Below are positions 1 through 5,829 of a DNA stretch of 5,829 bases, one piece after another (within the stretch, counting starts at the first letter, position 1; every line of letters begins with the position of its first letter). A program made the position numbers and the translations under genes. This DNA comes from Candidatus Methylomirabilota bacterium (GTDB lineage Bacteria; Methylomirabilota; Methylomirabilia; Methylomirabilales; Methylomirabilaceae), in contig JAGWRQ010000140.1 in the NCBI GenBank assembly GCA_028869615.1, forward strand, positions 1 to 5,829, written 5' to 3'. Under the pieces are notes generated by a model. That model was not told the DNA's origin, searched no databases, and saw only the letters and a program-made list of their open reading frames with translations.

Positions 1-311
1 TCGATCTTCTCGACGCCCGGCACACGCTTGAGGTCTTCATCCAAGACCCCACGGGTCTGCGCTCACCCGCCTCAGAGGTAGATCGGAACCTGATGGTCCA
101 CAGCGAACTGGAACAGCTCTTCGAGTGGGGGGAGTCCGTACGGCTTCACGTGCTGCCGCAACTGTGGCTTGATCAGAACCGTGGCATCGAGTGCCAGGAC
201 AATGCCGACATCGATACCGGATTCCTTCGCCCCCTTCGCCACAAAGAACGGCATCGCCGCCCGCGTCGAGTTGTCGTACCCATAGGTCGCGGTGATCAGT
301 AATCTCGCCAT
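1..311 (-). CDS. DsrE-family protein, candidate double-selenocysteine (UGGU) protein, 3' end beyond window
   Basis: Small DsrE/DsrF-like protein, a family of sulfur-relay and related proteins often using a CxxC or single redox Cys. Visible residues 1-79 run from MARLLITATYGYDN, a typical family N-terminus, through GIDVGIVLALDA and LPPLEELFQFAV to VPIYL. Codon 80 is TGA (72-74), then Gly-Gly, then TGA at codon 83 (63-65), then AQTRGVLDEDLKRVPGVEKI to the window edge with no frameshift. Family members usually read IYxCGxCxxARG here, so both TGA codons replace the two Cys. The visible product has no Cys codon at all. The ATG at 311 is chosen because GGAG lies 6 nt upstream; the in-frame ATG at 323 has no ribosome site. 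The gene sits 43 nt after the nuclease stop, probably the same operon. Selenocysteine insertion is inferred. Alternatives are a decayed or truncated 79-residue gene, or UGA read as Cys by an unusual tRNA. Confidence 0.85.
30..50 (-). promoter_or_regulatory. Candidate bacterial SECIS hairpin for the second UGA
   Basis: On the coding strand GGGGTCTT (43-50) pairs with AAGACCTC (30-37): eight pairs including one G-U wobble. The loop is GGATG (38-42). There are 20 nt between the second UGA (63-65) and the loop, which begins with GG, again fitting the bacterial SECIS pattern. The 5' arm overlaps the 3' arm of the hairpin assigned to the first UGA. Confidence 0.5.
44..58 (-). promoter_or_regulatory. 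Candidate bacterial SECIS hairpin for the first UGA
   Basis: On the coding strand AGACCC pairs perfectly with GGGTCT around a GTG loop (arms 53-58 and 44-49, loop 50-52). There are 19 nt between the first UGA (72-74) and the loop, and the loop starts with G. Bacterial SECIS elements lie inside the coding region just after the UGA, with a loop carrying an early G roughly 16 to 37 nt downstream. The loop is short; opening one pair gives a CGTGG loop. Its 3' arm is shared with the second hairpin, so only one can form at a time. Confidence 0.5.
63..74 (-). other. Two in-frame UGA codons, probable selenocysteine sites (U-G-G-U)
   Basis: The coding strand reads TGA GGC GGG TGA. The two TGA codons are at 72-74 and 63-65 and are separated by two glycines, giving the spacing of a CxxC redox motif. 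They are the only stops in this frame between the ATG at 311 and position 1. Sec for Cys at a redox site is the classic selenoprotein pattern. UGA is a true terminator elsewhere in this window: it ends the nuclease gene (355-357) and the radical SAM gene (2588-2590). Confidence 0.75.
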
Positions 312-313
312 CG

Positions 314-321
314 CTCTCTCC
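314..321 (-). promoter_or_regulatory. Ribosome binding site deciding the DsrE start
   Basis: The coding strand has GGAGAGAG just before the ATG at 311, with GGAG 6 nt away. It overlaps the alternative upstream ATG at 323, which has no such site before it. This supports MARLL rather than MERAMARLL as the N-terminus. Confidence 0.7.
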
Positions 322-354: not shown

Positions 355-1050
355 TCACAGGTTGAGGCGCGGGCTCGCTTCCCACTCCCGGACTGCGCGG
401 GTCCATCGGCAGAATCCACAGGAAGATGAACCGGCCGGCGTGGGGCCGCGAAGGGTCGTCACAGCGTCTCTGACAAGCGCTTCGGCGGCTGTCGGATCGG
501 TCGGAACTTCCTGGACGTCGACCTGGAACTGAATGAGGCCGTACTCTTTCACTTCGACGGGATAATAGTAGATCAGATAGGCAAGGCGTTTGGTCTTGTG
601 GCCGTTGCTTTCAAGCAACAGCGTGTAGAGGTTCATCTGGTCCTGGTAGAATGCGTGGGTGTCGTTTTTCGGAGCATATCCCCGGGTCTTATAATCCAGC
701 GGGTAGTAGAAGTCGGCCTCGTCCACGAGGCACTCGTCCAACGCGCCCATCACGTCAACGTCGGTCCAGGCCGTGACATGACGGATCCCGCGTCTCCAGT
801 CACGCCATTGATCGATCGTCCGCGCGTCCGGGAGCAGTCTCCCAGGGAGCTTGCCTTTCACTTCAGGCGGCAGCTCACCACAGTCTCTGAACCGGTCGAA
901 GTACCGTTTGAACTGAAGGTCCAGTCCGCCAGGCAGACTCGGAAAGATCGTCTCAGGGCGCTTGATCCCGGCATTGATCTCCAGCCAGAAGCAGCGGGGG
1001 CACTCGCGATACAATCCCAGACGGCTGTTAGATAAGGTGAGGCGCTTCAT
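355..1050 (-). CDS. PD-(D/E)XK nuclease, RecB/Cas4 type, with possible Fe-S cysteines
   Basis: A 231-residue protein resembling the RecB-like PD-(D/E)XK domain family (Cas4, AddB C-terminus), DNA exonuclease or endonuclease-like enzymes. The N-terminus is LSNSRLGLYRECPRCFWLE, the usual 'S-x-S-x-L-x2-Y-x2-C-P' opening. Catalytic candidates are D105 (GALDE), D119 and K121 (PLDYKTR), and the Q138/Y142 motif (QDQMNLY). C17, C20, C211 and C214 form two CxxC pairs at opposite ends, a layout that could hold an Fe-S cluster, though Cas4/AddB usually has one N-terminal and three C-terminal Cys. It is too short for a helicase-nuclease, and no cas genes or CRISPR repeats are nearby, so a repair or DNA-processing role is likelier than adaptation. 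Start: ATG 5 nt after the RNase G stop, with GGAGGGG upstream inside the end of RNase G. It ends with TGA, so UGA is a normal stop here. The substrate is unknown. Confidence 0.85.
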   Translation of the reverse strand: MKRLTLSNSRLGLYRECPRCFWLEINAGIKRPETIFPSLPGGLDLQFKRYFDRFRDCGELPPEVKGKLPGRLLPDARTIDQWRDWRRGIRHVTAWTDVDVMGALDECLVDEADFYYPLDYKTRGYAPKNDTHAFYQDQMNLYTLLLESNGHKTKRLAYLIYYYPVEVKEYGLIQFQVDVQEVPTDPTAAEALVRDAVTTLRGPTPAGSSSCGFCRWTRAVREWEASPRLNL

Positions 1051-1055
1051 GCGCC

Positions 1056-2588
1056 CTACCCCTCCAGCAACTGGTATTTCCCGAGAGCCAACGATTCTTC
1101 CGGAACCAGGACGATCTCCCCGCCATAACTCTGCTGGAGCGCCTCAATCACCTCGCCATCCTCAGCCTGAAACCAGCCGATGAGGTCGGGATGGGCCCGA
1201 ATCCGGATCAGGGAGATCCGCTTGCGGGATAGCCGCCATTCCACCTCTCGAAGGACTTGATGGGCGATGGACGGAGTCGAACGGATGTAGCCAAGACCGC
1301 CGCACGCGGGGCAGGACGCGCTCAGGGCTTTGTTCAACCCTTGGCGGACCCGTTTCCGCGTCATCTCAACCAGGCCCAGTTCAGACAACAGTGAGACGTT
1401 GGTCGGAGAGCGGTCGGGCTTCAACACCTCCTTGATCTCCTGCAGCACCCGATCCCGGCTCTCCTGCCGAGCCATGTCGATGAAGTCGATGATGATGATC
1501 CCACCCAGGTCTCGTAAACGCACCTGGCGCGCGATCTCCCGGGCCGCCTCCAGATTGGTCTTGAGGACCGTTTCTTCAAAATCGTGCTTGCCGACATACT
1601 TGCCGGTGTTGACATCAATGGAGACCAGCGCCTCTGTCTCCTCCAACACGATATACCCTCCAGACTTCAGCCATACCTTGTGTCGCAGCGCCTTCTCGAC
1701 TTCCCGTTCGATACCGAACGACTTGAAGATCGGCTCGTCCTCGGTATACAGAAACAGATGCGACTTCAACTCAGGATGCAGCGATTCGGCATATTCCAGA
1801 CACCGCTCATACTCCGTCGGACTGTCCACCACCAGGCGGACTACCTCCTTCGTGAAGAGATCGCGAAAGATCCGGAAGATCAGATCCAGGTCCTTCTGGA
1901 CTAATGCCGGGGCGGTGAGTGTTTCGGCCTTGCCCTTGATCTTTTTCCAGAGCGATCGGAGAAACTCAAGATCGGCCTCGATCTCCGCCTTCCCTTTACC
2001 GATCCCGGCGGTCCTGACGATCACCCCCTCGCGGTCCGGGTTGATCTCCTCAATGATCGCCTTCAGCCGGGACCGTTCCGCTTCGTTCTCGATCTTCCGC
2101 GAGACCCCGACGTGCTGCTCGGTGGGCATATAGACCAGGTAGCGGCCGGGCAAGGTGATGTGCGAGGTAATGCGAGCGCCCTTGGTCCCAAGCGGCTCAC
2201 GGGCCACCTGCGCGACGATCTCCTGCCCCTCCTTCAGGAGTTCCTCAATACTGGCCTGTTGGCGGCGACCTCGAGAGAAGGTCGGTCTCGGCTCCTCGGA
2301 GGCAGGTTCGGCAGGCTCGCCCTCCTCCCCGATGGTCAGCAACTGCTCATACTCCTCCACGTCCTCGAAGATGTCCCGAACGTACAGAAAGGCGTCCTTC
2401 GCCAGACCCAGATCCACGAAGGCCGCCTGCATCCCTGGGAGAATCTTCAGCACGCGCCCTTTGTAGATGTTTCCGGCGATGCTCTTGTTCTTCGAGTCGT
2501 CGATCAACAACTCGACCAGGACACCGTCCTCCAGGACGGCCACCCGGGTTTCCACGATAGAAGAGTTAACGATGATCTCGCGTTTCAT
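1056..2588 (-). CDS. rng: Ribonuclease G/E family endoribonuclease
   Basis: RNase E/G family, about 510 residues, close to E. coli RNase G (489) and lacking the long C-terminal scaffold of RNase E. It cleaves single-stranded RNA in rRNA maturation and mRNA decay in the cytoplasm. An N-terminal S1 domain is seen (IYKGRVLKILPGMQAAFVDLG, residues about 41-61), with a charged insertion (about 77-120) rich in Glu, Pro and Arg before the S1 domain resumes. The DNase I-like catalytic core has the metal-binding aspartates D325 (LVSIDVNTGKYVG) and D368 (GGIIIIDFIDM). The Zn-link motif CPACGG has C426 and C429. The ATG at 2588 is preferred to the further upstream start at 2642: family proteins begin near MKREIIVNS, GGATGG lies 6 nt upstream, and this ATG overlaps the stop of the preceding gene as TGATG, which suggests translational coupling. 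Confidence 0.96.
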   Translation of the reverse strand: MKREIIVNSSIVETRVAVLEDGVLVELLIDDSKNKSIAGNIYKGRVLKILPGMQAAFVDLGLAKDAFLYVRDIFEDVEEYEQLLTIGEEGEPAEPASEEPRPTFSRGRRQQASIEELLKEGQEIVAQVAREPLGTKGARITSHITLPGRYLVYMPTEQHVGVSRKIENEAERSRLKAIIEEINPDREGVIVRTAGIGKGKAEIEADLEFLRSLWKKIKGKAETLTAPALVQKDLDLIFRIFRDLFTKEVVRLVVDSPTEYERCLEYAESLHPELKSHLFLYTEDEPIFKSFGIEREVEKALRHKVWLKSGGYIVLEETEALVSIDVNTGKYVGKHDFEETVLKTNLEAAREIARQVRLRDLGGIIIIDFIDMARQESRDRVLQEIKEVLKPDRSPTNVSLLSELGLVEMTRKRVRQGLNKALSASCPACGGLGYIRSTPSIAHQVLREVEWRLSRKRISLIRIRAHPDLIGWFQAEDGEVIEALQQSYGGEIVLVPEESLALGKYQLLEG

Positions 2589-5188
2589 CAGTCGCCATCC
2601 AGGACCAGGTCGGTTCTCGCCACACACAGCTTCGCTTCCCACCCATCATACTCCCCGTCGAGCGTCTCCTGCAGCAGGTGGGTCATAATCGCCTGTGGTC
2701 GCACACCGATGCCCTGGCCCGTCCTCAAACGAAGGTCCCAACAGAGTGTCCCTTCCTCTTCCTGCAGCGCCGCTAACCCCAGGATCTGCGGACGGGCATC
2801 GATCTCCACCCGCCCATCCTTCCGCTCCACGCTGACCAGAATGCTGGGCCGATCCAACCACTCATCGCAGAACGCCTGAGCGCCGAGTCGCTCGCCGATC
2901 TGCTTGGCACAGCCATTCAGCGGCAACGAGACGCGATAGACGGCCTCTCGCGCCAACGCCGTGAGCGACGGCGCCGTTAACGGAACCTCCCAGGCCCGAA
3001 GCAATTGCAATCCGTCCGCGAGGCAACGATTGACCCGCGTCGTCAACTCCTCCGGGGCCATGGCCGCGCGCAACTCGATATCCCCCAACTCCTGCCGCCC
3101 CTCGACCCCCACCGGCAGCGCGAGGGCACACGACAGTTTCGGCTGAGGGTTGAACCCCTGCGAGTAGGCTACGGCAACCCCGGCCCGACGCAGCGCCCGG
3201 CTGAGCGCCCGCATCACCTCCAGGTGCGAGAGAAACCGGAGTACGCCGACCTTCTGAAAGACAAATCGAATGCGCTGCACGGGCGCTTCGCTTGAAGTTT
3301 CGGGCTTCGCGTTTCGGGTTTCGGGTGCAGCGCTTTGGGCCGCGCACGTTGAGCCCGAAACTCCAAATTCGGAACTCGAAACCTTCATTCCGACTTGCTC
3401 GGCCCAGGTCGGCCAGTTGGGCATACAGATCTCGCCGCAGGCCGTGCAGGTGGCCGTATGGCAATCGACCGTCCCGCGTGCCTCCAGCGCCTTCTTGTAT
3501 TCCCGCTGCAAAAACGCCTTGCTGACACCGGTATCGATGTGGTCCCACGGCAACGGCTCATCCAGGTTGCGCGGCCGGTTGGCGATGGCCTTCGGATCGA
3601 TCCCCGTCTCCTCGAAGGCCTGCATCCACCGGTCGAACTTCAGGTGTTCGGTCCAGCCGTCAAGCCGGCACCCCAGCTCATAGCCGCGCCGGATGGCCCG
3701 GCCCAGTGAACGATCACCCAGGGAAAAGACCGCCTCCAGAAACGAGGACCGGACGTTATGCCACTTATACGAGACCTTGACCTCCCGCAACTTCCGCCTC
3801 AGGTAGTCCTGCTTCTCCTGGAGCAGCTCCATGGAGTCCTGGGCGAACCATTGGAACGGGGTGTGCGGCTTCGGCACGAATGGGGAACTGCTGACGGTCA
3901 GGCCGAAGCCTCTCGCCGACTCGGCCCGCGCGACCCGCGCCGATTCCCGCGTAATGCGAACCAGCTCGTCCAGATCCTCCTGCGTTTCGGTCGGCAGGCC
4001 GATCATGAAATAGAACTTTACCGATTCCCAGCCGGATCTGGCGGCGTTCCGCACGGCCGTAAAGATCTGCTCCTCGTCGAACCCTTCCTTGTTGATCACC
4101 TTCCGAAGCCGCCGGCTTCCGGCCTCCGGCGCGATGGTGAAGCCGGTCTTGCGAACCCGGCTGATCTCATCGGCCACCTGCGGAAACCGGTTCAGGGTTT
4201 CAACCCGGAGGGAGGGAAGCGACAGCGAGATTTTCTCCGGCAGGAGCGTGTCCATCAGTGAAGGCACCACATCGGGAAGGACCGTCAGATCGGCGATGCT
4301 CAACGAGGCAAGCGAGACCTCTTCGTACCCCGTTTCCCGAATCGCCTGCAAGGCCAACCGGCGGATCTCCTCGGCCGATCGCTCCCGGAGCGGCCGATAC
4401 AGATAGCCCGCCTGACAGAACCGGCACCCCTGGGTGCAACCCCGCATCACCTCGATGCTCGCACGGTCGTGGACGATCTCCATGAAGGGGACCGGGAAGG
4501 CGCCATAGTCGATCCCATTGAGATGAATCGCCGTCCGCTTGCGGATGGTCTCGCCCTGGTGGAGCGCGGGGACGTAGCAGCCCGGGATCCGGGTCCATGC
4601 CTCAAGGAGCGCGTCACGCCGCCCGCCTGATGCCTTCCATGCGGCCACCGTCTCGCAGACCTCGAGCACGACCTCCTCACCGTCGCCCAGGACAAATAGG
4701 TCAAAAAATTCAGCGATCGGCTCGGGATTGAAGCCGACGGACCCGCCCCCGATGACGAACGGATCGCCCTCCCGCCGCTCGGCGCTCTTCAGCGGAACGC
4801 CGGCCAGGTCCAGCATGTTCAGGATGGTGGTGTACGACAGCTCGTACTGCAGCGTAAAGCCGATCAGGTCGAAATCGGCCAAGCTGTACCCGGACTCAAG
4901 GGTACAAAGCGGAATCAGCCGCTGCCGCAGGAGCATCTCCGCATCGGTCCAGGGCGCATAGACCCGTTCCGCCATGAACTCCGGCCGCCGGTTCAGGATC
5001 TGGTAGAGGATCTTCAGGCCCAGATGGGACATGCCGATTTCGTACGTATCGGGGAAGGCAAGCGCAATCCTGACCGCTGTCTTGGCGGGGTCCTTCTTGA
5101 CGGCGTTCCACTCCATTCCGATATAGCGAGACGGTCTGCTGACCTGGGGCAGAATCTCGTTCATCATCGCTTGCCGGAAGCTACGCAC
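2588..5188 (-). CDS. B12-binding-like radical SAM protein fused to DUF2344 domain
   Basis: An 866-residue protein joining two families often encoded side by side or fused (TIGR03960-type radical SAM and TIGR03936-type DUF2344). Both lack an assigned reaction; linkage to RNase G and ribosomal genes in other bacteria hints at RNA or translation-related modification. The N-terminus (about 38-171) resembles a B12-binding fold, with FPDTYEIGMSHLGLKILY and VIGGGSVGFNPEP. The radical SAM cluster is RGCTQGCRFCQAG, C251, C255 and C258. A Cys-rich segment DCHTATCTACGEIC (C576, C581, C584, C588) may bind metal. Residues about 601-636 are a low-complexity linker, then DUF2344 follows (about 638-836, RIRFVFQKVGVLRFLSHLEV, YSQGFNPQPKLS). 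GTG at 5188 is chosen because GGAGAGG ends 7 nt before it. The start at 5245 would overlap the -10 box. ATG at 5167 or 5164 (MMNEILPQV) remains possible but has no clear ribosome site. Confidence 0.92.
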   Translation of the reverse strand: MRSFRQAMMNEILPQVSRPSRYIGMEWNAVKKDPAKTAVRIALAFPDTYEIGMSHLGLKILYQILNRRPEFMAERVYAPWTDAEMLLRQRLIPLCTLESGYSLADFDLIGFTLQYELSYTTILNMLDLAGVPLKSAERREGDPFVIGGGSVGFNPEPIAEFFDLFVLGDGEEVVLEVCETVAAWKASGGRRDALLEAWTRIPGCYVPALHQGETIRKRTAIHLNGIDYGAFPVPFMEIVHDRASIEVMRGCTQGCRFCQAGYLYRPLRERSAEEIRRLALQAIRETGYEEVSLASLSIADLTVLPDVVPSLMDTLLPEKISLSLPSLRVETLNRFPQVADEISRVRKTGFTIAPEAGSRRLRKVINKEGFDEEQIFTAVRNAARSGWESVKFYFMIGLPTETQEDLDELVRITRESARVARAESARGFGLTVSSSPFVPKPHTPFQWFAQDSMELLQEKQDYLRRKLREVKVSYKWHNVRSSFLEAVFSLGDRSLGRAIRRGYELGCRLDGWTEHLKFDRWMQAFEETGIDPKAIANRPRNLDEPLPWDHIDTGVSKAFLQREYKKALEARGTVDCHTATCTACGEICMPNWPTWAEQVGMKVSSSEFGVSGSTCAAQSAAPETRNAKPETSSEAPVQRIRFVFQKVGVLRFLSHLEVMRALSRALRRAGVAVAYSQGFNPQPKLSCALALPVGVEGRQELGDIELRAAMAPEELTTRVNRCLADGLQLLRAWEVPLTAPSLTALAREAVYRVSLPLNGCAKQIGERLGAQAFCDEWLDRPSILVSVERKDGRVEIDARPQILGLAALQEEEGTLCWDLRLRTGQGIGVRPQAIMTHLLQETLDGEYDGWEAKLCVARTDLVLDGD
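3285..3390. repeat. Repeat-like low-complexity insert within the radical SAM/DUF2344 linker
   Basis: GTTTCGGG occurs at 3297-3304, 3311-3318 and 3318-3325. An inverted copy lies at 3352-3361, giving an 11-bp inverted repeat (3296-3306 with 3352-3362). Related CCGAAAC and TCGAAAC units follow to about 3383. On the coding strand it is translated in frame as a linker rich in Ser, Glu, Thr and Pro (PETRNAKPETSSEAP). Similar TTCGGGTTTCGG-type dispersed repeats are found between genes in some environmental bacteria, so this may be a mobile repeat unit that landed in frame. Its exact ends are uncertain. Confidence 0.5.
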
Positions 5189-5257
5189 CAGAGCGCCTCT
5201 CCTTTTTCTCGCGCGGTTCACGCCGTATCGCGCAAAATCATACACGAAGGCGCTCTG
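5189..5257. repeat. 10-bp inverted repeat spanning the promoter and ribosome site
   Basis: CAGAGCGCCT at 5189-5198 and its exact reverse complement AGGCGCTCTG at 5248-5257. One arm lies in the spacer between the -35 and -10 boxes. The other abuts the GTG start and overlaps the ribosome site. The upstream arm would not be transcribed from the predicted start, so any role would be at the DNA level, for example as a paired operator. It could also be chance. Confidence 0.35.
5196..5202 (-). promoter_or_regulatory. Ribosome binding site supporting the GTG start
   Basis: The coding strand has AAGGAGAGG, with GGAGAGG ending 7 nt before the GTG at 5188. No comparable site precedes the downstream ATG codons at 5167 and 5164. 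This decides the start in favour of GTG at 5188. Confidence 0.6.
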
Positions 5258-5265
5258 AAAGGCAA
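5237..5265 (-). promoter_or_regulatory. Sigma70-type promoter for the radical SAM-rng-nuclease-DsrE operon
   Basis: On the coding strand TTGCCT (-35, 5260-5265) is followed by exactly 17 nt and TATGAT (-10, 5237-5242). Transcription would start near 5230, leaving a 5' leader of about 40 nt before the GTG at 5188. It is the only promoter-like signal found ahead of the four closely spaced genes, so the operon probably starts here. Confidence 0.6.
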
Positions 5266-5337
5266 TCTTGTGACGATGGGAGCCGGAGTGGCACGTGAGA
5301 GAAAGGGAGCAAGTGGACGATAGTACGCTCTGTGTCG

Positions 5338-5829
5338 TTACAGATCGACCAGACGATTCTGAAACGCAAACCGGACCAGCGCGGCGCGGTTGCCGCCGAT
5401 GCGAAGCTTCTTGCGGATTCGCGCGGCATGGTTCTCAACGGTCCGAACGGATAGTTGAAGCGCTCCGGCGATCTCTTTGTCGGGCAAACCCTGTGCGATA
5501 CGCTGGAGCACCTGAGTCTCGCGGGACGTCAGACGCGCGCCCGAGCCGCTGTCCGGCGGCCCCTGTGCACGCTGGGCTACCCGATCTTCGATCCGCGGAT
5601 AGACAACGCCGGACGTCGCCAGGCTCTCCTCGGACGTTCGATAGTAGATGGCGAAGGCGCAATTGCACGGCGGCGTCCCCGAGCATGCGCTCACACAGAC
5701 CTTGACGTCGCCGATCGCCTCCGCTATGGCCCCACCAAAGAGTCCGGAACCGAACTCGCACAGGTACGATCCGGATTCATTCGACTCCGCCAGCTCGCAC
5801 CCCAGCACAGCGATCCGAATCACGCCTTC
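5338..5829 (-). CDS. V4R-like sensor / LuxR-type HTH transcriptional regulator, N-terminus beyond window
   Basis: The last 163 or so codons of a regulator that enters from the right edge. The frame stays open to the edge and the first possible start (GTG at 5823) falls inside what looks like a domain, so the gene is treated as 5'-partial. The N-terminal part resembles the end of a V4R (4-vinyl reductase) domain: a CELAES segment, then CEFGSGLFGGAIAEAIGD, then VCVSACSG followed by CNCAF. It has Cys at 9, 22, 43, 47, 53 and 55 counted from that GTG; V4R domains bind small hydrophobic ligands and often zinc through such Cys. The C-terminus (about 97-161) is a LuxR/GerE helix-turn-helix: LTSRETQVLQRIAQGLPDKEIA and LSVRTVENHAARIRKKL. 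No receiver domain is visible, so a one-component sensor is inferred. The HTH call is firm; the V4R call is moderate. It ends with TAA, about 150 bp before the radical SAM gene. Confidence 0.85.
   Translation of the reverse strand, partial: EGVIRIAVLGCELAESNESGSYLCEFGSGLFGGAIAEAIGDVKVCVSACSGTPPCNCAFAIYYRTSEESLATSGVVYPRIEDRVAQRAQGPPDSGSGARLTSRETQVLQRIAQGLPDKEIAGALQLSVRTVENHAARIRKKLRIGGNRAALVRFAFQNRLVDL

Follow-up and report, generated by a model that had tools for sequence, protein, structure and literature searches.

The dsrE-like gene at one end of the window (by which we mean the whole stretch of DNA analysed, 5829 bases) most likely encodes a 121-residue DsrE-family protein in which both in-frame UGA codons are read as selenocysteine (Sec), with Sec-Gly-Gly-Sec in place of Cys-x-x-Cys. 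The first-pass annotation had called it a likely double selenoprotein, a prediction that the frame, the conservation, the Sec genes and a hairpin of the bSECIS type all support. If it is correct, this gene offers a concrete, testable case of the bacterial insertion of two Sec three residues apart with the signal inside the coding sequence, and a double-selenium form would be added to a sulfur-carrier fold. The window corresponds to a complete contig (C72) of a genome of 2.06 Mb in 278 contigs, and its dsrE features are as follows.

3 to 311, minus strand: DsrE-like gene with two predicted Sec, first 103 codons; start ATG at 311-309; PF02635; 121-aa relatives.
316 to 321, minus strand: GGAGAG, likely Shine-Dalgarno of the dsrE start at 311, read from the sequence.
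72 to 74, minus strand: UGA1, predicted Sec, aligned to the Cys of TusD, YchN, 3mc3 and 3pnx.
63 to 65, minus strand: UGA2, predicted Sec, aligned to the second Cys of CxxC homologs.

On the minus strand the frame consists of 79 sense codons, TGA (74-72), GGC GGG and TGA (65-63), which confirms, coordinates and both TGAs included, the earlier reading of a gene that ends conventionally after 79 codons and continues as TGA-Gly-Gly-TGA. Beyond the second TGA the frame continues for 20 codons, AQTRGVLDEDLKRVPGVEKI, without meeting a stop before the window ends, in line with the earlier statement that nothing else interrupts it. Its completion comes from contig C6 of the same genome, whose first 89 bases overlap the dsrE end of the window exactly and which supplies the final 18 codons, DIKRYAQLLVEYDRSVSY, followed by a third TGA that is the real stop (L003:88-144). 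The joined product has 121 residues, as do most aligned relatives. A further in-frame ATG lies at 323-321; the start at 311 is favoured both by GGAGAG (321-316) and by how the relatives align. The read-through protein matches PF02635 at 44.6 bits (gathering cut-off 22.7).

The tail after the UGAs is under protein-level selection. In 14 of the 17 genes of the TGA-Gly-Gly-TGA subfamily (a count that omits L001, which is cut, L028, which has a deletion, and L021, a repeat), pN/pS is 0.15 before UGA1, 0.21 for codons +15 to +41 of the tail and 0.93 downstream of the true stop, and synonymous divergence is high, at a pS of about 0.6. Both UGAs coincide with invariant Cys/Sec columns in an alignment of 19 proteins, three of them CxxC proteins, which agrees with the original placement of both TGAs on the expected cysteines, and conservation, judged by alignment and pN/pS, continues beyond both TGAs and not just the first.

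In the protein database searched, nearly all listed homologs have the conventionally truncated form. About 5.8 billion proteins were searched, with 144 homologs as the outcome; 120 of these were listed, and 119 of them stop at the residue preceding UGA1, 114 at exactly 79 aa. Also among these 120 is P0012 (82 aa), which ends in VYVCGG just before the UGA2 position and suggests a natural CGGU form of DsrE. The first-pass annotation had pointed to orthologs with UGGU, UGGC or CGGC as a check; UxxC relatives do exist, and this one database protein ends in CGG, as expected of a CGGU form. A profile search gave at least 6321 proteins, the best 120 being 117 CSPC and 3 CAPC paralogs.

A six-frame search of 95 genomes of the phylum yielded 70 match rows in 52 genomes, of which 50 rows were read; the 20 left out include five more one-TGA rows and the C6 piece. 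The 50 loci comprise 19 UxxU, 27 UxxC (TGA first, TGC second) and 4 CxxC genes, or 18, 26 and 4 distinct ones once L021 and L034 are dropped as repeats over 75 nt. The TGA-Gly-Gly-TGA subfamily is present in 17 of the 95 genomes, always with both TGAs: 11 of the 15 genomes of this Methylomirabilis-type genus and 6 of the 80 remaining phylum genomes searched. The 16 relatives are 68-94% identical to the window gene, and a Cys at the second redox position is absent from all 17, TGA standing there in each. Two distant paralogs (G016, UGGU; G018, UTGU) bring the two-TGA form to 19 of the 95 genomes. The six-frame search gave no match in four genus genomes, three of them about 80% complete and one 94%. 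Named relatives at seven of eight loci were Candidatus Methylomirabilis, Methylomirabilota and Rokubacteria MAGs, and the eighth was a weak partial match to a Bacteroides MAG. The single-Sec UxxC DsrE paralogs, 27 in number (L029-L034, L036-L044, L046-L057), come from other genomes of the class and show the motifs UGRC, UGKC, UGAC, UTAC, UTPC and UDTC.

The UxxU form probably has one origin. When both redox positions are masked, UxxU requires two changes on the first version of the tree, owing to the long UxxC branch L057, and UxxU as one clade was not rejected (AU p 0.257). Without L057, a single branch separates the UxxU genes from the rest (82/77; found in 84% of 200 bootstrap trees). We accordingly dropped the idea that the paralogs L035 and L045 represent an independent gain of UxxU.

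The genome itself carries the genes for Sec insertion. It has a tRNA-Sec with a UCA anticodon (56.4 bits, cut-off 47), and selB (380.9 bits), selA (599 bits) and a fragment of selD (259.8 bits) all score above their cut-offs, so that the check for selA, selB, selC and selD proposed with the original claim finds all four, selD as a fragment with an in-frame TGA at a contig end that cuts it. Matches above cut-off were obtained for selB in 84, selA in 83 and selD in 92 of the 95 phylum genomes, and in 14 control genomes for selB in 2, selA in 1, selD in 2 and tRNA-Sec in 5. A tRNA-Sec match alone proves little, because those 5 of 14 controls also pass its less strict model. A SelD with an in-frame TGA, itself a predicted selenoprotein (G000:C67:1-552), occurs in most phylum genomes above cut-off.

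Sec at both positions has to be weighed against three other accounts of the TGAs. A change of the genetic code in this lineage, with UGA read as an ordinary amino acid, would also leave frames open across TGA. However, UGA is a true stop at the third TGA of dsrE and where two of the window's four other genes end, selA, selB, selD and tRNA-Sec are all present, and the UGAs coincide precisely with Cys columns, for which reasons we reject a code change as wildly improbable. A sequencing error, a pseudogene or an artefact of assembly at the contig end might be suspected from the fact that the gene is cut there and that the MAG has 7.85% contamination. Yet the same structure recurs in 16 more genomes, including the single-contig assembly G025, the tail evolves at the low pN/pS given above, and the same gene lies past the break in 10 genus relatives. 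The TGAs, found again in 17 genomes, are thus not sequencing errors, as the first-pass annotation had allowed they might be, and we reject pseudogene and assembly error too, leaving this explanation with next to no probability. The possibility that UGA1 alone encodes Sec and that translation stops at UGA2, giving an 82-residue protein, draws on the UxxC relatives, which carry TGA at the first position alone; selection on the tail beyond UGA2 and the alignment of UGA2 with an invariant Cys argue against it, and we reject this termination as very unlikely. Sec at both UGAs is the reading that we follow below.

How a bacterial ribosome would be directed to insert Sec at two codons so close together is a question of hairpins. 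The bSECIS model, as described in the parts of PMC13188914 accessible to us, is a hairpin with a loop of 3-9 nt that has G as its first or second base, a stem of 4-16 bp and a stability of -7.5 kcal/mol or lower, with a spacing of 16-37 nt from UGA to loop. We scanned for hairpins with uninterrupted stems only. Two hairpins of the dsrE gene concern us here.

44 to 58, minus strand: hairpin 1, AGACCC-GUG-GGGUCU, loop 19 nt after UGA1 and 10 nt after UGA2.
29 to 51 (core 32-48), minus strand: hairpin 2, UGGGGUCUU-GGAUG-AAGACCUCA, predicted SECIS, loop 29 nt past UGA1 and 20 nt past UGA2.

Because they share bases, the two are mutually exclusive. Hairpin 1 corresponds to the hairpin predicted as SECIS in the UxxC relatives, and hairpin 2 fits the bSECIS model for both UGAs, at -11.9 kcal/mol and 29 and 20 nt; a SECIS-model hairpin in range of both UGAs of a UxxU dsrE is new here. 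The subfamily consensus of hairpin 2 is (U)GGGGUCUU-GGAYG-AAGACCUC(A), with a 7-nt loop and one pair fewer in L017, and the two UxxU paralogs have another hairpin, 26-27 nt past UGA2. The paralog L045 (G018, UTGU), which lacks hairpin 1, has an 8-bp hairpin with a GGAUU loop 35 and 26 nt after its UGAs.

The second codon has a model hairpin within range in all 18 distinct UxxU genes, in 0 of 26 UxxC genes and in 2 of 4 CxxC genes, the UxxU count amounting to about one event because that form probably arose once. The same scan without the loop-G rule (at -7.5 kcal/mol or lower) gives 18 of 18, 5 of 26 and 2 of 4; the contrast between UxxU and UxxC leans on the early-G loop rule and is weaker without it. 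Mean folding z past the second codon is -1.68 for UxxU and -0.06 for UxxC genes, a contrast whose p value is not meaningful because the genes are related. The UxxC genes have a separate hairpin, with a loop that is mostly GUG or GGG, 19 nt past UGA1 (at -7.5 or lower in 21 of 26), and this GUG/GGG-loop hairpin is seen in most of the 27 UxxC paralogs. The UxxC and UxxU sister genes thus place their best SECIS-type hairpin differently.

Covariation over 39 distinct sequences is 0.253 for hairpin 1, against 0.129 +- 0.014 in shuffles (0 of 500 as high) and 0.142 for its best slid version, and two of five covariation measures (double-change pairs and pair types) were not above shuffles in these 39. 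For hairpin 2, covariation over the 39 sequences is barely above shuffles and below one slid version, and none was found in the main clade, where the hairpin is nearly invariant. The lower four of its six core pairs are formable in the majority of the 39 sequences, including most of the UxxC genes; it is the upper two that distinguish UxxU from UxxC.

Codon usage gives a further view of the constraint on this stretch. The codons GGG, GTC, TTG, GAC and CTC (at +8, +9, +10, +13 and +14) are unvaried in all 16 distinct subfamily genes, whereas of 36 columns elsewhere in which the amino acid is invariant, none uses a single codon; at +12 there is GAA in 15 genes and GCA in one. Neither core hairpin pairs at the columns with invariant residues and varying codons (+1, +2, +4, +7, +11). 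TTG makes up 1.3-16% of Leu codons at the subfamily loci, and pS is 0.20 in the hairpin stretch and 0.57-0.60 in its flanks. Random synonymous versions, drawn for 10 of the 18 genes, match the stability of hairpin 2 in 0.9-8.6% of draws, and when the hairpin 1 codons are held fixed 15-53% reach it in eight main-clade genes and 0.8-6% in two paralogs. Since synonymous draws reach this stability, part of hairpin 2 is dictated by the amino acid sequence, and this codon-sampling null is weak support for it.

We hypothesize that SelB with Sec-tRNA on hairpin 2 would serve UGA1 and then UGA2, while a loop of the hairpin 1 type, only 10 nt from UGA2, would by the model be too near to serve that codon. 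One shared SECIS is the simplest reading, since in 14-16 of the 16 subfamily genes the structure favoured at equilibrium with 45 nt exposed is hairpin 2 even when the ribosome is still at UGA1.

An alternative is that the two hairpins act in relay, hairpin 1 serving UGA1 until the ribosome, three codons on, melts its 5' arm, whereupon the freed 3' arm would pair downstream to make hairpin 2 and serve UGA2. The spacing lends itself to such a scheme, as hairpin 1 stands 19 nt from UGA1 and hairpin 2 a nearly equal 20 nt from UGA2, with bases in common. Hairpin 1 is kept in the subfamily, its pairs being present in 100% of main-clade cells, and all 16 genes retain TTG, whose U pairs in both hairpins, though CTG with GAG should stabilise hairpin 2 equally or more. 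With 25 nt exposed, a window too short to hold hairpin 2 at UGA1, hairpin 1 forms at UGA1 in 15-16 of 16 genes and hairpin 2 at UGA2 in 16 of 16. The 45-nt folding, by contrast, already puts hairpin 2 first at UGA1, the folding model is crude (at 45 nt, hairpin 1 is dominant in anything from 2 to 20 of the 26 UxxC genes, according to the point at which exposure begins), and L045 does without hairpin 1. On balance we think a relay unlikely, and we regard with the same doubt the combined proposal of a two-state SECIS, its arm-sharing hairpins passed on by the ribosome, together with Sec at both DsrE redox cysteines. If it were true, two Sec codons nine bases apart would each be served at 19-20 nt by one two-state element. 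For the remainder of the text we keep to one shared SECIS.

The fold of the protein points to sulfur or redox chemistry. One of five predicted structures of the Cys form is confident (pLDDT 87.4; the other four 59-74), and its matches include YchN (1jx7), 3mc3, DsrEFH (2hy5) and TusD (2d1p). At E 0.001 or better there are ten PDB matches, each of them either an entry with the DsrE fold or a conserved protein whose function is unknown; a peroxiredoxin is not among them. The position of the first Sec (Sec1) is a Cys in YchN, 3mc3, 3pnx and TusD, and YchN has CxxC there. The 107-residue window protein has a single Pfam match, PF02635 (DsrE), with no SirA domain, and no NCBIfam match at E 0.001; its full-length relative L013 has none at E 0.01. 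The NCBIfam TusD model matches weakly in 5 of the 19 aligned family members (best E 0.00079). No NCBIfam model names the protein, and its putative biochemical role is drawn from fold and motif.

In TusD and DsrE the Cys at the Sec1 position is the one that carries sulfur. Sec1 would then be the nucleophile for sulfane sulfur or an oxidant, the second Sec would resolve it as an intramolecular diselenide, and a diselenide DsrE protein may act as a low-potential soluble redox or sulfur-relay protein. TusBCD and DsrEFH act as hetero-oligomers. Among the 12 proteins scanned around dsrE (4 in the window, 3 on C6 and 5 beside the relatives' genes), none was a DsrE-family neighbour. The TusD and DsrE sulfur carriers, YchN and 3mc3 share the fold but have no Sec.

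Two Sec residues three apart, with a possible diselenide, are also found in Prx-like thiol:disulfide oxidoreductases, NF041115 metal-binding proteins and FmdB-like proteins, and likewise in UxxU SELENOW (alga, amphioxus). SelL is another UxxU selenoprotein, and the eukaryotic UxxU members rely on a 3'-UTR SECIS. All of these (Prx-like, NF041115, FmdB-like, SELENOW and SelL) belong to protein families other than DsrE; the SelL-type UxxU Prx-like proteins have a thioredoxin/peroxiredoxin fold, unlike the DsrE fold of the window protein.

Among the closest known systems is the DsrE-like selenoprotein (PF02635; Sargasso Sea, GOS, Desulfovibrio vulgaris), which shares the Pfam domain and the first-position Sec but has the motif UxxC, whereas the window gene has UGA at both positions. 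UxxC is the form given in the accessible parts of PMC1088965, PMC2398784 and PMC9312934, and the accessible part of the 2026 review PMC13188914 gives it too, with one Sec. The first-pass annotation was right in pointing to a DsrE-like selenoprotein from a marine metagenome (UxxC, in the part of PMC1088965 available). Within the available part of PMC2398784, UxxU is assigned only to a Prx-like family. YedF, a SirA-DsrE fusion linked to selenium metabolism in the part of PMC5322559 at hand, has a DsrE-like domain and a CGxC motif in common with the window protein, which differs in having UGGU and no SirA.

One-Sec UxxC DsrE and UxxU in other folds are thus known already, and two-Sec DsrE was not found in the literature searched. 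The available portions of PMC1794560, PMC5322559 and PMC2432076 hold no two-Sec DsrE, the word DsrE is absent from PMC12013277, and none of the titles and abstract openings that made up the literature searched gave a UxxU DsrE. The earlier suggestion that such a form may be undescribed holds for this literature, whose coverage is incomplete, making a prior description possible. The finding also bears on the very large Methylomirabilota selenoproteome, 63 selenoprotein genes in one MAG, cited in the portion of PMC13188914 available to us.

The genes around dsrE offer no obvious partner. Upstream of it, window positions 355-5829 hold genes for a LuxR-type regulator, a B12-radical-SAM protein (TIGR03960 with a TIGR03936 domain), RNase G and a PD-(D/E)XK protein. 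Genomes of the genus retain part of the order LuxR, B12-radical-SAM, RNase G, PD-(D/E)XK, dsrE and zinc-type dehydrogenase. Of the relatives' loci, 18 were examined, and the dehydrogenase gene, which lies on C6, is 3' of dsrE at 10 of them too, each in the genus. None of the upstream genes was found in G034 and G033, G022 showed only part of PD-(D/E)XK, that gene is missing beside dsrE in G030 and G021, and several relatives' stretches end short of the far neighbour genes. In the six genomes outside the genus and at the two paralog loci, none of these neighbours lies beside dsrE, and five neighbours scanned with Pfam at such loci are mutually unrelated. A conserved partner gene of dsrE is therefore rejected, as the neighbours differ outside the genus. 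The LuxR-type regulator (5338-5829, minus strand) has a Cys-rich stretch, CVSACSGTPPCNC, ahead of its HTH domain, and could be a redox or metal sensor.
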